Assembly: GCA_021813445.1 (NCBI GenBank)
Contig: JAKAKP010000142.1
Coordinates: forward strand, 1-41,831
Direction: 5' to 3'
Length of the DNA stretch: 41,831 nt
Source: Deltaproteobacteria bacterium
GTDB taxonomy: Bacteria; Desulfobacterota; Desulfobaccia; Desulfobaccales; 0-14-0-80-60-11
The notes beneath the pieces are model-generated. The model saw nothing but the letters and a program-made list of their open reading frames with translations. It did no database searches and was not told where the DNA came from. Position numbers and translations under genes: made by a program. Shown here piece after piece: positions 1-13,238 of this stretch. Position 1 is the first letter of the stretch. Each line of letters begins with the position of its first letter.

Positions 1-330
1 TTGGTGATGTTGTCGCTGTCCTTATTGGCCACCCAGATGTTTGACCCGTCAAAGGCGATGGCATTTGGAGCGGACCCGACGCCGGAAGTGCCCAGGACCG
101 TGCCGTCGCTGGCCCGTAACCTGGTGACGTTGTTGTCGCCCTCATTGGCCACCCAGATGCTGGCCCCGTCAAAGGCGACGCCATTTGGACCGGTGCCAAC
201 GGGGTAAGTGCCCAAGACCGTGCCGTCGCTGGCCCGTAACTTGGTGACGTTGCTGCTGCCACCATTGGTCACCCAGATGTTGGCCCCGTCAAAGGCGACG
301 CCCTGGGGACTAGTGCCCACGGCAAAGGTC
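1..330 (-). repeat. 120-bp tandem coding repeats (40-residue propeller blades)
   Basis: The phrase ccgtgccgtcgctggcccgt recurs with a spacing of exactly 120 bases (units about 1-120 and 121-240). A more diverged first unit lies at about 241-330. The two full units are nearly identical over most of their length. The array continues beyond base 1. It encodes repeats of the form [20 protein letters not shown]. High DNA identity points to recent duplication or gene conversion. Confidence 0.85.
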
Positions 331-1892: not shown

Positions 1893-1906
1893 AATTAAAA
1901 GCCTTT

Positions 1907-2023
1907 CACCGCCAAGACACCAAGGCACAAAGTGTCACCAAGGAAATCTATTTCTGACTTGGCAAGGCCAAGGCAGAACGTATTTTTCTTTGTGCCTCTT
2001 GGTGTTCTAGGTGTCTTTGTGGT
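1907..2023. repeat. Palindromic intergenic repeat, family A (variant copy)
   Basis: The left arm at 1907-1944 (caccgccaagacaccaagg...) is complementary to the right arm at 1987-2023 (...ggtgtctttgtggt), with a small internal stem TTGGC/GCCAA. It fills nearly the whole gap between the phosphotransferase-like and kinase genes. Confidence 0.75.
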
Positions 2024-2029
2024 TATTCT

Positions 2030-3043
2030 TTAAGCCGCGGCCTTGGCCCCTTCTTCAGCATATTCCCCGGCCAGGGTGAAGTAGGCCCGGGCTGCGGCTC
2101 CGGCCTTCTCCCGGGCCTCCGGCCTTTGCCCCTGGTCCTGGGCCACAAACGCGTTGATCTTTCCTCGCACGTAAGCCCGGTAACACTTGTAAAAATCTAA
2201 GATCTCCAGCAGCTCCTGATCCCCGGAGGCCTGGGCGAAGCGCTGCACAAAGAAGCGGCTGAGGTCCCGCAACCCATGAAAATCCAGGTCCATCGCCAGA
2301 AAATCGATGTCCGCGGCCACATCACCATAGCGGAAGCGGGGATTAAATTCAATGCAATCATAGATGTACACCCCGTTCGCCAGACAGATGTTCTGCATAT
2401 GCAGATCCCCGTGGCAGTCCCGGATCTTACCCTCCCGGATGCGCCGCAAGAAAAGCTGCCGGTTCTTTTTCAAAAAGCCCCAGGAAAATTCCTTAATCCG
2501 GAAGAACAACTCCGGGGACAGCATCTCTCCCACCAATCCCGCGGTGCGGGAGAAATTCTCCTGGTGGTTGAAGTGGATGATGGCCGGCTCCCCGTATTTA
2601 TTGATCCGGGGGCCGGTGGCCGCGGCCTCGTAGAAAGGCACAAGCCGCTCAATGATCCTCTCCAGGTGCTCCGGCTTAAGTTCCCCCCGGTCCGCCACTT
2701 CATCCATCATACGCTCCTGGGGCATCCGCACCATCTGCAGGGCATATTCCAGGGGGTGGCCCTGACCCCCCACCTGCAACCTGCCCTGATGTTCGACAAT
2801 GGGCAGCACCTCAAGGTAGATCTCCGGACAGAGGCGGCGGTTGAGCACCAGTTCCTGGTGCAGGTAAAAATGCCGTTTCCTTAAAGTGGTGAAATTGAGA
2901 AACCCCAGGTCCACCGGTTTTTTGACCTTATAAACGAAGCGGTCCGTCAGAAAGATCCAGGAGACATGGGTCTGCATCAACTCCACCCGGGAGGTGGGCT
3001 GGGGATATGCGGCGGGGTCCTTAAGACAGGCAATCAGATCCAT
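2030..3043 (-). CDS. Aminoglycoside phosphotransferase (APH)-like protein (COG2187-like)
   Basis: A protein of about 337 residues. The kinase-like signature is clear: VYKVKKPVDLGFLNF near the N-terminus (ATP-lysine strand), then DCHGDLHMQN (catalytic loop of the HxDxxxxN type) and IYDCIEFNPRFRYGDVAADI (metal-binding loop). This is the N-terminal half of the usually fused APH/AAA protein. The frame also opens at ATG 3061, six residues earlier. Neither start has a well spaced Shine-Dalgarno sequence; MDLIACLKDPAAYP fits the family's N-terminus as I recall it. The protein is probably a cytoplasmic kinase of unknown substrate. The name does not imply antibiotic resistance. It is transcribed before the kinase gene, with a palindromic repeat between them. 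Confidence 0.85.
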   Translation of the reverse strand: MDLIACLKDPAAYPQPTSRVELMQTHVSWIFLTDRFVYKVKKPVDLGFLNFTTLRKRHFYLHQELVLNRRLCPEIYLEVLPIVEHQGRLQVGGQGHPLEYALQMVRMPQERMMDEVADRGELKPEHLERIIERLVPFYEAAATGPRINKYGEPAIIHFNHQENFSRTAGLVGEMLSPELFFRIKEFSWGFLKKNRQLFLRRIREGKIRDCHGDLHMQNICLANGVYIYDCIEFNPRFRYGDVAADIDFLAMDLDFHGLRDLSRFFVQRFAQASGDQELLEILDFYKCYRAYVRGKINAFVAQDQGQRPEAREKAGAAARAYFTLAGEYAEEGAKAAA

Positions 3044-4181: not shown

Positions 4182-5390
4182 ATGAACGCTCTCCGGGAAA
4201 AAACTGCGGCTCCCTCCTACCCTGCCCTCCTGGCCATCTGCTGCGGCATCGCTTTTGCCAGCTACCTGGGCTCCTACATGCGCATCCCGGTGGTGCCGAT
4301 CTTCGCCCACTCCCTGGGGGCCAGCACCTGGGAAGTGGGGATCATCAACGCCGCGTTCCTGCTGATGTCCGGGGCCCTTTCCATCCCGGTGGGGATGCTC
4401 TCCGACCGCTGGGGCCGGAAGCTCTTGATCGTGGCCGGGCTGGTGATCTCCATGGGCACCTCTTTTCTCCTCTATGGCAGCAGCACCCCCCGGCAGTTGA
4501 TCTGGATTTATCTGCTCTTCGGCACGGGCCTGGCGGCCATCGGCCCCACCCTCATGTCCTATGTGGCGGATTTTTCCCCCGCGACCCACTTGGGGCGCTC
4601 CTACGGTTGGTATACCACCGCCATCTACACCGGCATGAGCCTGGGTCCGGCCCTGGGCGGGTTTATCGCCCAATGGCTGGGATTCGGCCCCTTGTTTCTC
4701 ATCGCCGGCTTTTTTATCCTGGTCCTCATCGTCCTGACAGCCATGTTCCTGCCGGGGCACGCTCCGCATCTGAGCCGGCGGCCTGCCAGCCCCAAAATGA
4801 GAGGCATCACCCGGGACCTCCTCAAAAACCGCGCCCTGTTGGGCTGCTGGCTCCTCACCCTGGGGAGCTGCTTCGGGCAGGGCGTGTTCGTCACCTTCTC
4901 CCCGTTGCTGGCCCATGACCAGCACCTGAGCATGGGCCAGATCGGCCTGATCTTCACCGCCCAGGCGGTTTCCAACGCCGTGTCCCGCCTGCCCTTCGGC
5001 CGCCTCAGCGACCGGGTCCGCAGCCGGGGCAAACTGGCTGCATTGGGCTTTATTCTCTTCAGCCTCTCCCTGGGAATCTTCGGCTTCTGCCGGACCCTGC
5101 CCCAATTCCTCCTGGCCGCAGTGGCCCTGGGGGTGACTATGGGCCTGTCCTTCACCCCCTTGGGGGCCCTGATTGCCGAAGTCGCGCCCCCGGAAGCCCG
5201 GGGCCTGGCCATGGGTGGTTACAACACCAGCATTTATCTCGGGATGATGCTCAGTTCGGCCTTTATGGGCGGGGTCATCGGCTGGGCCGGCTATGCCCTC
5301 AGTTTCATGCTCACCGGGGTCCTGGTGCTGCTGGTTACGGGATATTTTTATCTGCTGATCAGAGATTTTGCAGGTACAAAAATATCTTGA
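4182..5390 (+). CDS. Major facilitator superfamily (MFS) transporter
   Basis: About 402 residues with roughly 12 hydrophobic helices. The MFS signature GMLSDRWGRKLLI lies in the loop after helix 2, and its half-repeat GRLSDRVRSRGKL sits at the matching place in the second half. The first helix carries GIAFASYLGSYMRIPVVPIFA, common in drug/sugar-efflux-type MFS proteins. The substrate cannot be told. An upstream ATG at 4137 is in frame, but its 15 extra residues look non-coding and TATAAT lies at 4161-4166 between the two starts, so ATG 4182 is preferred. The ribosome binding site is poor for both. The stop codon overlaps the -35 box of the next gene. Confidence 0.85.
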   Translation: MNALREKTAAPSYPALLAICCGIAFASYLGSYMRIPVVPIFAHSLGASTWEVGIINAAFLLMSGALSIPVGMLSDRWGRKLLIVAGLVISMGTSFLLYGSSTPRQLIWIYLLFGTGLAAIGPTLMSYVADFSPATHLGRSYGWYTTAIYTGMSLGPALGGFIAQWLGFGPLFLIAGFFILVLIVLTAMFLPGHAPHLSRRPASPKMRGITRDLLKNRALLGCWLLTLGSCFGQGVFVTFSPLLAHDQHLSMGQIGLIFTAQAVSNAVSRLPFGRLSDRVRSRGKLAALGFILFSLSLGIFGFCRTLPQFLLAAVALGVTMGLSFTPLGALIAEVAPPEARGLAMGGYNTSIYLGMMLSSAFMGGVIGWAGYALSFMLTGVLVLLVTGYFYLLIRDFAGTKIS

Positions 5391-5416
5391 CAATGATATT
5401 AATTATTTTATATAAA
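5387..5416 (+). promoter_or_regulatory. Strong sigma70-type promoter for the PxxKW gene
   Basis: A perfect -35 TTGACA lies at 5387-5392 and TATAAA at 5411-5416, 18 bases apart, in an AT-rich tract that contrasts with the GC-rich surroundings. The -35 box overlaps the transporter's stop codon. Transcription would start about 35-40 bases before ATG 5460. Confidence 0.7.
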
Positions 5417-5459
5417 ATATAGATTTACTTGATTTATCAAAGGCAGGGGGATTACGGCC

Positions 5460-5750
5460 ATGCACTGCGTAAGCGTAAAATCGGGCGTCGATTGCGTCTT
5501 CATGAGCAAAAAGGGCTGTTCGTTCAACGGCGGCAAATGCCGCACCATCGTGGAATCTTGTCAGGGTTGCGACCGCGTCCTTTTATGGGAAGAGGCCAGC
5601 TACTGCGGTTCCTTTCCCGATCCTGCGGCCAAGTGGCGTCAAGGTCACTGCAATCTGGCCACGCACGTGAAAAAGGAAAAGAAGGAAAACGGCAACGGCA
5701 CCAAGCTCAACCCGCTCAAGGCTTCCAAACGCAAAGCCGCCGGCCGCTAA
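5460..5750 (+). CDS. PxxKW family cysteine-rich protein
   Basis: A 96-residue soluble protein with eight cysteines (residues 3, 12, 20, 27, 34, 37, 49, 64), including CQGC at 34-37, and the family motif PAAKW at 55-59. The tail is lysine-rich (KKEKKENGNG). An AGGGGG lies about 11 bases before ATG 5460. The gene stands alone between a near-consensus promoter and a strong terminator, which suggests a well expressed monocistron. I know the family mainly from deltaproteobacteria, and its function is not established. The cysteine count would allow metal or Fe-S binding, but that is inference. Confidence 0.85.
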   Translation: MHCVSVKSGVDCVFMSKKGCSFNGGKCRTIVESCQGCDRVLLWEEASYCGSFPDPAAKWRQGHCNLATHVKKEKKENGNGTKLNPLKASKRKAAGR

Positions 5751-5772
5751 AATCTAGCGGCGGAAAACGGAC

Positions 5773-5806
5773 AGCGCGGCCCGGTTTCAGGCCGCGCTTT
5801 TTTTTT
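5773..5806 (+). terminator. Rho-independent terminator of the PxxKW gene
   Basis: The stem AGCGCGGCC (5773-5781) pairs with GGCCGCGCT (5790-5798) around an 8-base loop, followed by a run of nine T (5798-5806). It lies 23 bases after the stop codon. Confidence 0.9.
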
Positions 5807-5815
5807 CGTTCTTTC

Positions 5816-5880
5816 ATCGGCGTTCATCGGCGTCTATCGGCGGTTAAATATTAACCGCCGATGCACGCCGATAGACGCCG
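5816..5880. repeat. Palindromic intergenic repeat with ATCGGCG units (family B)
   Basis: The left half repeats ATCGGCG three times. ATCGGCGGTTAA (5836-5847) pairs with TTAACCGCCGAT (5851-5862), and the outer part continues with GCACGCCGATAGACGCC. It lies between the convergent PxxKW and aminotransferase genes. Confidence 0.75.
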
Positions 5881-7079: not shown

Positions 7080-7125
7080 CGTCTTGGTGCTCCTTCATAT
7101 GAAATTGGCTTAAGAGAAAAAAGAA

Positions 7126-7250
7126 TTTACCACAGAGGCACAGAGGACACAGAGGTTCACAGAGAATTTTGAATTTGGGCGCTGGCAGCGCCCAAATTTA
7201 AAAATATTCTCTCTGTGTAACTCTGTGCTCTCTGTGTCTCTGTGGTGAAT
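7126..7250. repeat. Nested palindromic repeat, family A
   Basis: Outer arms: ACCACAGAGGCACAGAGG on the left, and complementary ...CTCTGTGTCTCTGTGGT on the right. Inside is a second perfect palindrome, AATTTGGGCGCT (7172-7183), 3-base loop, AGCGCCCAAATT (7187-7198). It lies between the divergent starts of the aminotransferase and NAD kinase genes. Confidence 0.9.
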
Positions 7251-7320
7251 CTCTCTCTTCCCCAAACCCTTTGATAATTACCCAAGATTATGATAATTGT
7301 CAACAGCGGGAGGAGCGGGG

Positions 7321-8196: not shown

Positions 8197-8288
8197 TTCA
8201 CCACGGAGAAACAAAGGGCACAGAGATTCACAGAGAAAGGAATCTTTTCCTCTGTGATTCTATGTGATCTCTGTGCCTCTGTGGTAAA
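8197..8288. repeat. Palindromic repeat, family A (short copy)
   Basis: Arms TTCACCACGGAGAAACAAAG and CTCTGTGCCTCTGTGGT surround a short core without a strong second palindrome. It lies between nadK and fdhD and ends 7 bases before the fdhD start. Confidence 0.8.
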
Positions 8289-8295
8289 TATTTTT

Positions 8296-9105
8296 ATGAC
8301 TGAACCCATCGCCGAATTCCCCATCCGCCGCTACCGCCAGGGGAAGTTTACCGCGGTCAACGACCCCGTGGCCGTGGAGGAGCCCCTGGAGATCCGCCTG
8401 GCCGGCGAGCCGTTCCAGGTGCTGATGCGCCTCCCGGGCTGGGAAAAGGAACTGGCCGTCGGTTTTCTGTACACCGAAGGCATCATCCGCCAGCTCTCCG
8501 AGATCACCTTCATCCATTTCTGCGGCACGGCCACCGACCCGCTGCTGCCCCCCAACGTGGTGGACGTCAGGTTGACCGCCGAGGCCCAGGCCCGCACCGG
8601 CAGGAGGCATCTGGAAGTGGCCTATTCCAGTTGCAGCCTCTGCGCCAAAGAAGCGGTGGCGGAAATCCGCCAGAAGATAACCCCGGTGAGCAGCGATCTC
8701 ACCCTCGACGCCCCTACCCTTTTGGCTCTGATGGACCGGCTGGCCGCAGCCCAGAGCGTTTTCCAGGAGACCGGGGGCACGCACGGGGTGGCCCTGGCCG
8801 CGCCCGACGGCCAGATCTTCCTGCTGGCCGAAGACATCGGCCGCCACAACGCCATGGATAAGGTCATCGGCCGGGCCTTGCTGGAGCGGCGGGATATGAC
8901 CCGGATGGTGGCCCTGCTCAGCGGCCGCATCAGCTTCGAGATGGCCTTAAAATCCGCCCGGGCCGGCATCCCCATCCTGGCCGCCATCTCCGCGCCCACC
9001 TCCATGGCCCTGACCCTGGCCCAGGAGACGCACCTCACCCTGGCCGGCTTCGCCCGGGGCCGCAGCATGAATGTCTATACGCATCCGGAAAGGATTAAAG
9101 ATTAA
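8296..9105 (+). CDS. fdhD: Formate dehydrogenase accessory sulfurtransferase FdhD
   Basis: A 269-residue protein. FdhD passes sulfur from a cysteine desulfurase to the molybdenum/tungsten cofactor so that formate dehydrogenase becomes active. Seen here: the essential CxxC as SSCSLCAKEA (C113, C116), GGTHGVALA, EDIGRHNAMDKVIG and LSGRISFEMALKSARAGIP, all family hallmarks. The frame extends upstream to 8254, but those 14 residues (MILCDLCASVVNIF) are the translated arm of the repeat and are not expected to be protein. ATG 8296 begins the family-like part. It has no clear Shine-Dalgarno sequence, since the repeat arm occupies that place. No formate dehydrogenase genes lie in the window. Confidence 0.93.
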   Translation: MTEPIAEFPIRRYRQGKFTAVNDPVAVEEPLEIRLAGEPFQVLMRLPGWEKELAVGFLYTEGIIRQLSEITFIHFCGTATDPLLPPNVVDVRLTAEAQARTGRRHLEVAYSSCSLCAKEAVAEIRQKITPVSSDLTLDAPTLLALMDRLAAAQSVFQETGGTHGVALAAPDGQIFLLAEDIGRHNAMDKVIGRALLERRDMTRMVALLSGRISFEMALKSARAGIPILAAISAPTSMALTLAQETHLTLAGFARGRSMNVYTHPERIKD

Positions 9106-9225
9106 CCACAGAGACACAAAAGACACAGAGTTACACAGAGAATAAAAAGAGGGTGGGCCAACGGCCCACCCTCTTTAATATTTTTCTCTGTGTATCTCTG
9201 TGCTCTCTGTGCCTCTGTGGTAAAT
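9105..9225. repeat. Nested palindromic repeat, family A
   Basis: Outer arms ACCACAGAGACACAAAAGAC and CTCTGTGCCTCTGTGGT enclose a different inner palindrome (see 9146-9176). The repeat starts at the last base of the fdhD stop codon and ends 8 bases before the stop of the convergent Tim44-like gene. Confidence 0.9.
9146..9176. terminator. Likely bidirectional terminator inside the repeat core
   Basis: AAAGAGGGTGGGCC, loop AAC, GGCCCACCCTCTTT: a perfect 14-bp stem with A-rich and T-rich flanks (9141-9148 and 9174-9184). It separates the convergent fdhD and Tim44-like genes. Confidence 0.6.
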
Positions 9226-9232
9226 CTTTTCT

Positions 9233-12377: not shown

Positions 12378-13238
12378 TTAAAGGGGGACTTTATCTTTGT
12401 CAATAGGCTTGCGACCTTGTGCCGGATGGATAAGGTATAGAAAATATTCCTGATTCCCTTTAGGACCTTTCAGGGAGGACGGGAAGGCCGGACTCACCTG
12501 CAGGCCCAGGGAGCGGGCGGCGCGGGCGACTTTTTCCACCGCCTCCTGCTGCCTTCTGGGGTCCCGGACCACCCCCCCCTTCCCTACCTGGCCCTTGCCC
12601 ACTTCGAACTGGGGTTTCACCAGGGCCAGGATTTCGCCGCCGGGGCGCAGGAATTCCAGGATTTTGGGGAGCACCAGGGTCAGGGAGATGAAGGACAGGT
12701 CCAGGGTGATGAGGTCCACGGGCTCGGGTATGTCCTCCGGGGGCAGATGCCGGATATTGCGCCTCTCCAGCACCACCACCCGGGGGTCCTGGCGCAGGGA
12801 TGCGTCCAACTGGCCGTAACCCACGTCCACCGCGTAGACCTTGCCCACGCCCTGGACCAGGAGGCAATGGGTGAAGCCGCCGGTGGACGCGCCCACGTCC
12901 AGGGCCACTTTGCCTTGGGCCTTGACCTGAAAATGGGCCAGGGCCCCGGCCAGCTTTTCGCCGCCCCGGCTGACAAACTGGTGGGGCGCAGGCTTAAGAA
13001 TAATCGGGGCTTCTCCGGGCACCAGGGTGCCGGATTTGGTCTCCACCCGGCCGGCCACTTCCACCCGCCCGGCCAGGATCAGGGCCTGGGCCTTGGAGCG
13101 GGTCTCCGCCAGGCCCCGGTCCACCAGGAGGGTATCCAGGCGCTCTCTGGAAGGCTTGTTTTCTGCTTTCAGTTTTCCGTTTTCCGTTTTATTAGGAGAA
13201 TCGAGCAGGGTGCATTTTATGCTGCAAAATAACGGCAC
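12378..13238 (-). CDS. tlyA: TlyA-type rRNA 2'-O-methyltransferase (S4 + FtsJ domains)
   Basis: About 286 residues. An S4 RNA-binding domain begins at SRERLDTLLVDRGLAETRSK (residues 30-49). The FtsJ-like methyltransferase follows: ALDVGASTGGFTHCLL (SAM site), VYAVDVGYGQLD, LITLDLSFISL and ALVKPQFEVGKG. TlyA proteins methylate ribosomal RNA cytidines at the 2'-O position and were first described as haemolysins. The true start is unclear. The only upstream start in frame is GTG 13238, and the roughly 25 residues before the S4 domain translate a low-complexity repeat phrase (aaaacggaaaacggaaaact). A nearer non-ATG start cannot be excluded. The usual neighbour in this operon is dxs; here two secreted-protein genes lie between them. 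Confidence 0.9.
   Translation of the reverse strand: MPLFCSIKCTLLDSPNKTENGKLKAENKPSRERLDTLLVDRGLAETRSKAQALILAGRVEVAGRVETKSGTLVPGEAPIILKPAPHQFVSRGGEKLAGALAHFQVKAQGKVALDVGASTGGFTHCLLVQGVGKVYAVDVGYGQLDASLRQDPRVVVLERRNIRHLPPEDIPEPVDLITLDLSFISLTLVLPKILEFLRPGGEILALVKPQFEVGKGQVGKGGVVRDPRRQQEAVEKVARAARSLGLQVSPAFPSSLKGPKGNQEYFLYLIHPAQGRKPIDKDKVPL

Follow-up and report, generated by a model that had tools for sequence, protein, structure and literature searches.

In a reading that we hold to be about evenly poised between right and wrong, the small cysteine-rich PxxKW protein described here is an iron-binding docking protein, for which a Fur-controlled, iron-sparing substitute exists that shares only its C-terminal tail. 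The protein is encoded in a 41,831-nt stretch of a Deltaproteobacteria bacterium genome (GCA_021813445.1, contig JAKAKP010000142.1, positions 1 to 41,831), the whole of which is referred to as the window. Across the proteins that we compared, the tail is kept throughout while the heads vary: some have a single Cys4 core, some have two Cys4 sites, and some have no metal site at all. The metal-free head lies under predicted Fur sites in genomes that also encode the metal head.

The gene forms one compact unit (Table 1) in which TTGACA with TATAAA, a small cysteine-rich ORF and a terminator all stand as a preliminary description of this DNA had stated, including the overlap of the promoter with the upstream stop codon. 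The arrangement TTGACA-18-TATAAA carries 11 of the 12 consensus bases and, as claimed, is the best promoter in the window among sites with 16–18 nt spacing; however, its top score is also reached by a minus-strand site at 12403, the spacing of which is poor (15 nt). The promoter is missing from the list of a stock scanner because that scanner requires T as the last base of the −10 element. The G+C content is 12–22% in the promoter stretch, compared with 58% window-wide. The ribosome-binding site, previously called good, is indeed present but is of moderate rather than high strength, as 27% of 255 control starts pair with the anti-Shine–Dalgarno sequence (anti-SD) equally well or better. High expression of the window gene, also proposed earlier, is predicted from the near-consensus promoter only.

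Table 1. Features of the PxxKW expression unit and of its encoded protein in the window
Feature	Position	Strand	Basis or remark
−35 element TTGACA	5387..5392	+	sequence; shares bases with the TGA stop codon (5388-5390) of the MFS gene on its 5′ side
−10 element TATAAA	5411..5416	+	sequence; 18-nt spacer from −35
Ribosome-binding site AGGGGG, moderate	5445..5450	+	9 nt 5′ of the ATG at 5460; anti-SD pairing −11.1 kcal/mol
PxxKW family cysteine-rich protein (NF038144 / PF20657 DUF6811), 96 aa + stop, 8 Cys	5460..5750	+	ORF, profile matches
N-terminal Cys4 site: C3, C12, C20, C27; optional in the family	5466..5540	+	111 distinct sequences
Core C34-x2-C37-x11-C49-PxxKW-C64 to H69	5559..5666	+	four Cys invariant, phage versions included
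C-terminal tail NPLKASKR, residues 84-91	5709..5732	+	common to an unrelated protein and phage proteins
Intrinsic terminator, G+C-rich stem 5773-5798 then T run	5773..5807	+	sequence

The neighbours of the window gene are the MFS transporter gene on its 5′ side, which ends inside TTGACA, and a convergent aminotransferase gene on its 3′ side. Between the PxxKW terminator and the aminotransferase gene lies an inverted repeat (5818-5880) of 30 nt, 87% complementary, the loop of which is 3 nt long. Elsewhere in the window, a collagen-like G-x-y repeat protein with 9-nt and 120-nt period repeats is encoded on the minus strand at the contig edge (1-945), and an intergenic repeat with CTCTGTG units occurs as four direct copies (1979-2032, 7202-7255, 8241-8294 and 9177-9230), with inverted partners at 7106-7164, 7117-7166 and 9099-9141.

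The self-contained character of the unit is borne out and is, moreover, conserved over the phylum. In a diverse set of 41 loci, made up of the window and 40 others, each taken from a different genome, an exact TTGACA within 150 nt upstream was found at 21/41 PxxKW loci against 28/286 control genes (the remaining genes in these loci whose upstream gap measures 60 nt or more), and a promoter score of at least 10/12 was reached at 22/41 loci against 23/286 controls; 2000 G+C-matched draws never rose above 12 and 11, respectively. A terminator follows PxxKW at 19 of the 41 loci compared with 19/288 controls, and the nearest same-strand upstream gene is at least 76 nt away in this set. The box-to-box spacers of the PxxKW promoters are not conserved, which agrees with a constitutive promoter. 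The median anti-SD pairing is −12.0 kcal/mol for PxxKW versus −8.7 kcal/mol for controls, and nine of the 41 loci pair better than all 255 controls, the pairing of the window being average. Taken together, the promoter, terminator and ribosome-binding-site counts favour steady, strong expression across the family, as far as sequence features can predict it. A search for an operon partner returned none: the convergent aminotransferase gene adjoins 37/93 loci but 8/40 in the diverse set, which reflects synteny rather than an operon. Very long Shine–Dalgarno stretches (AAAGGGGGTGAT type), pairing down to −23.6 kcal/mol and above all 255 controls, were observed 5′ of PxxKW at six loci (L097, L106, L103, L117, L088 and L114), where translation could be autoregulated.

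Over its full length, the window protein belongs to NF038144 (115.6 bits, cut-off 40) and PF20657 (123.8 bits, cut-off 35.8). Because of these scores, and of the recurrence of promoter and terminator far above controls, we regard the unit as beyond chance. The protein had earlier been called unknown; it now has a family name, yet the family is uncharacterised, as its record names no function, and the phage versions, the common tail and the cysteine-poor counterpart reported here are not part of that record. In the literature searched, we found no mention of PxxKW, DUF6811 or NPLKASKR.

PxxKW occurs in 272/395 genomes and 171/245 genera of the phylum to which the window belongs, with exactly one copy in every carrier, and in 0/14 control genomes. 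Fifty-two relatives emerged from a scan of ~85,000 species genomes; they are labelled Deltaproteobacteria, Desulfo- or Syntropho- groups, or merely bacterium. The family is thus likely restricted to the phylum, the sampling outside it consisting of the 14 controls and the species-genome scan. The remaining 123 of the 395 phylum genomes lack PxxKW, and among the 118 genomes scanned, no other credible tail protein was found in any of those without PxxKW; therefore, the system is not essential everywhere. With a strong dsrA match defined as E below 1e-100, 158 of the 395 genomes have both dsrA and PxxKW, 32 dsrA only, 114 PxxKW only and 91 neither (p 2.9e-9, kinship ignored). Sulfate reduction was dropped as the function of PxxKW, since dsrA is associated with it but not tied to it. 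For a role under oxygen or sulfide stress, which the preliminary description had suggested examining, nothing was found in favour, the dsrA association being loose in that 114 of the 272 carriers are without a strong dsrA match.

Two cysteine sites and a tail can be told apart in the protein, which is basic (pI 9.45, net charge about +10). The core cysteines 34, 37, 49 and 64 are kept in 111/111 distinct bacterial sequences, and P55, K58 and W59 of the PxxKW motif (residues 55-59) are invariant along with these four cysteines in a set of 74 sequences. The four N-terminal cysteines, on the other hand, are all present in 104 of the 111 distinct sequences, entirely missing from four and partly present in three, among them L017, the start of which appears to have been miscalled. 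Since they are lost jointly, the N-terminal four form one separate site. In a family that we infer to be Desulfovibrio-like (f41), 0/29 further PxxKW frames have four cysteines among the 40 residues that precede the core. A variable linker separates the core from NPLKASKR, which is exact in 93/111 sequences and differs by one substitution in the remaining 18.

Structure prediction with AlphaFold2 gave a mean pLDDT of 45 in a first run and of 63.7 after adding nine phage sequences, with residues 31-70 at about 75–79. This second model shows a core hairpin and a PxxKW helix at that confidence, and a tail helix at a lower one (about 60). Foldseek found no fold match (the best E being 7.3), no alignment in VIA-align reached a Z of 2, and the best hit of a PDB profile search with PxxKW (E 0.3) is unrelated. 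No known zinc ribbon was matched above chance by sequence, and none by fold. A MetV-like family, PF12225, gave a best E of 0.009 among 74 members and was dropped, as its Cys-to-Cys alignment is unconvincing and its score is below its cut-off.

In f41, a second, unrelated protein of ~100 aa ends in the same NPLKASKR tail. A search with its head only, the tail being excluded from the query, found this cysteine-poor protein in 52/288 f41 genomes from eight genera; among 198 genomes drawn from the phylum it was found in four, all of which are f41. It contains no cysteine in 45 of the 52 cases, one in six and two in one, and 51 of the 52 proteins carry the tail. Pfam and NCBIfam match it through the tail only (residues 77-97, 17–18.5 bits), and neither collection recognises a cofactor domain in it. 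In an earlier f41 sample of 59 genomes, the tail motif was present in 48/48 good genomes, 46 of which have PxxKW and the remaining two the cysteine-poor protein (p 0.009); two f41 genomes with neither protein are 74% and 54% complete. The sole cysteine-poor protein without the tail (L276, genome G256) ends in NLLKTSKC, as if decaying. On one contig (L264; C102 of G456), PxxKW (1895-2128, minus strand) and the cysteine-poor protein (83-310, plus strand) are convergent and ~1.6 kb apart. At two loci (L138 and L139) the cysteine-poor gene lies just 5′ of a gene that, from its N-terminal sequence, we take to be radA-like.

The link to iron comes from the sites upstream of the cysteine-poor gene. 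The delta-proteobacterial Fur box is given as WTGAAAATNATTTTCAW, and in Desulfovibrio two Fur boxes overlap with a 6-bp shift (PMC545781). A predicted tandem Fur score of at least 20/28 is reached upstream of the cysteine-poor protein in 39/46 genomes that also have PxxKW, compared with 0/5 genomes that have the cysteine-poor protein but not PxxKW (Fisher p 3.4e-4). Both proteins are held by 47 genomes, one of which was excluded from the count for having 79 nt of upstream sequence only, and two (G574 and G531) have both proteins and no Fur box. The same score is reached by 3/606 mixed controls and by 5/255 f41 controls, some of the latter lying in an intergenic region common with the cysteine-poor gene. 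As a positive control, 9/13 feoB loci of eight genomes reach 20 somewhere within 4–5 kb. The threshold of 20 was chosen after eight sequences had been seen. The counts overstate independence because the genomes share ancestry, the 46 with both proteins coming from seven genera and the five PxxKW-less ones from four, and the absence of PxxKW from these five (completeness 100, 96, 95, 93 and 74%) may partly reflect assembly gaps. The Desulfovibrio zinc (Zur) box ATGCAACNNNGTTGCAT is absent from the 52 cysteine-poor loci, the best score being 12/14, in two of them. Fur control of PxxKW itself was considered and dropped: the window promoter reaches 20/28 and would be a candidate site, but among 92 PxxKW upstreams only one relative (L053) does the same, and 0/13 in f41 do, so the site is not conserved. 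The earlier suggestion of a metal or Fe–S protein thus gains indirect support on the side of iron, from the Fur-box-like sites 5′ of a protein that shares the tail.

The tail also occurs on phage contigs. Fourteen distinct viral-contig sequences end in an NPLKASKR-type tail, all of which keep the four core cysteines and lack the N-terminal site; in these versions H69 is not conserved, and two of them have an insertion of ~20–25 residues between C34 and C37. The distance from the tail to the C-terminus is not fixed. The invariance of the phage tail is partly by construction, because the viral searches used NPLKASKR alone or a tail pattern; in the tail-pattern search, 12 of 20 stretches had a reading frame and the core, and the eight that were short or out of frame were dropped. 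Independent of the search design is the finding that the Cys4 core is retained in all phage matches that have a genuine reading frame. Two tail-bearing contigs, 545 kb and 260 kb in size, have terminase-like genes (E 1.5e-28 and 3.0e-24), and the terminase family is matched by 5/14 phage-contig records, three of them weakly. The viral searches found no relative of the head of the cysteine-poor protein, and the window protein has no match to named phages or plasmids. One viral contig encodes two different core-plus-tail proteins (L149 and L130).

We favour the following account. PxxKW would be a small and basic metalloprotein that is produced constitutively and has two functional parts. Of these, the Cys4 core most likely holds iron, as an Fe–S cluster or Fe(Cys)4, and the tail K-[ILV]-NPLKASKR, presumably the conserved requirement, would dock on a cellular partner that is itself conserved. 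Under iron scarcity, the Fur-controlled cysteine-poor protein of the Desulfovibrio-like family would replace PxxKW on that partner; in genomes that have lost PxxKW, the cysteine-poor protein would have lost its Fur boxes and would serve alone; and in large phages, a minimal core-plus-tail version would reach the partner as well. Iron is the likely metal because an iron-sparing substitute on a common partner is the simplest account. As for the partner, we guess at a universal machine such as the ribosome, with rather less than even confidence, or RNA polymerase, because the protein is basic, probably steadily expressed and single-copy and because its phage-carried minimal form recalls phage bS21. 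A bolder version, which we consider doubtful, is a phylum-specific docking code, in which NPLKASKR would anchor a subunit in a slot of the Desulfobacterota ribosome or RNA polymerase. An Fe–S protein would occupy this slot in iron-rich conditions, a non-homologous, Fur-controlled iron-free protein in iron-poor ones, and minimal versions encoded by phages during infection, and the machine would sense iron through this exchange of subunits.

Other readings were weighed against the same data. PxxKW could be a zinc protein with a structural role, located on either the ribosome or RNA polymerase, the Fur-controlled protein serving an iron need unrelated to metal replacement; the Cys4 core with its CxxC knuckle, the pI of 9.45, the basic tail, the phage copies and a monocistronic strong promoter are all usual for zinc-binding translation factors. 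However, the sites 5′ of the cysteine-poor protein fit the iron box, not ATGCAACNNNGTTGCAT, and no zinc ribbon was matched above chance by sequence, nor by fold, so we consider this reading unlikely, if worth keeping in view. The unrelated heads on a common tail, and the Fur-box-like sites where both proteins occur, also agree with the cysteine-poor protein being a competitor that displaces PxxKW under iron starvation and shuts off an iron-costly activity. This we find quite improbable, since five PxxKW-less genomes keep the tailed protein without Fur boxes, where there is nothing to displace.

The anaerobic hosts, the two Cys4 sites and the iron link would also suit an electron carrier, or a [4Fe–4S] protein like the small subunits of glycyl radical enzymes, with the tail as a dock for a redox partner, and PxxKW bears what we take to be a resemblance to HiPIP-like small subunits. 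Nevertheless, among 74 members no such Pfam family appeared at E up to 5, apart from one HIPIP at E 3, the PDB profile search gave no match, no enzyme gene steadily adjoins, and the cysteine-poor replacement is without a recognised cofactor domain; we give this reading little credence. Finally, the tail is short, C-terminal and transferable among unrelated proteins, as a degradation or localisation signal would be, rather than a dock on a functional partner. Degrons are, however, seldom so fixed in sequence, whereas this tail is letter-perfect in 93/111 sequences across the phylum and keeps no fixed distance to the C-terminus, leaving a signal improbable in our view. If the iron-binding docking protein is the correct description, an orphan family becomes testable that is spread over some two thirds of a large, mainly sulfate-reducing phylum, itself responsible for much of the anaerobic sulfur cycle, with a metal, a docking peptide and an iron-free replacement named; the phages would point to a partner worth taking over, and a metal-sparing swap via a non-homologous protein sharing the tail alone would be an unusual subunit exchange.

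Among the closest known systems are the pairs of zinc-binding (C+) and zinc-independent (C−) ribosomal proteins under Zur control (PMC5912738), in which a protein that binds metal likewise has a cysteine-poor equivalent under a metal regulator, here through Fur boxes predicted in 39/46 genomes. We note, however, that the C+/C− pairs as described there are regulated by zinc through Zur, whereas the cysteine-poor tail protein has a predicted iron box and no Zur box; that the C+/C− forms are homologous paralogs, whereas PxxKW and the cysteine-poor protein align in the tail alone; and that those pairs are ribosomal, whereas a ribosomal role of PxxKW is a guess. Phages, some of them very large, encode the ribosomal proteins bS21 and bL12 (PMC6375957), which are likewise small host-type proteins carried on phages, although PxxKW does not count among the known ribosomal proteins. 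In Desulfovibrio, ferredoxin is replaced by a Fur-controlled flavodoxin (PMC545781), a substitution that likewise involves an iron-free counterpart in the same regulon (as predicted here) and the same bacteria; flavodoxin, however, has a flavin, whereas the cysteine-poor tail protein is without a recognised cofactor domain.
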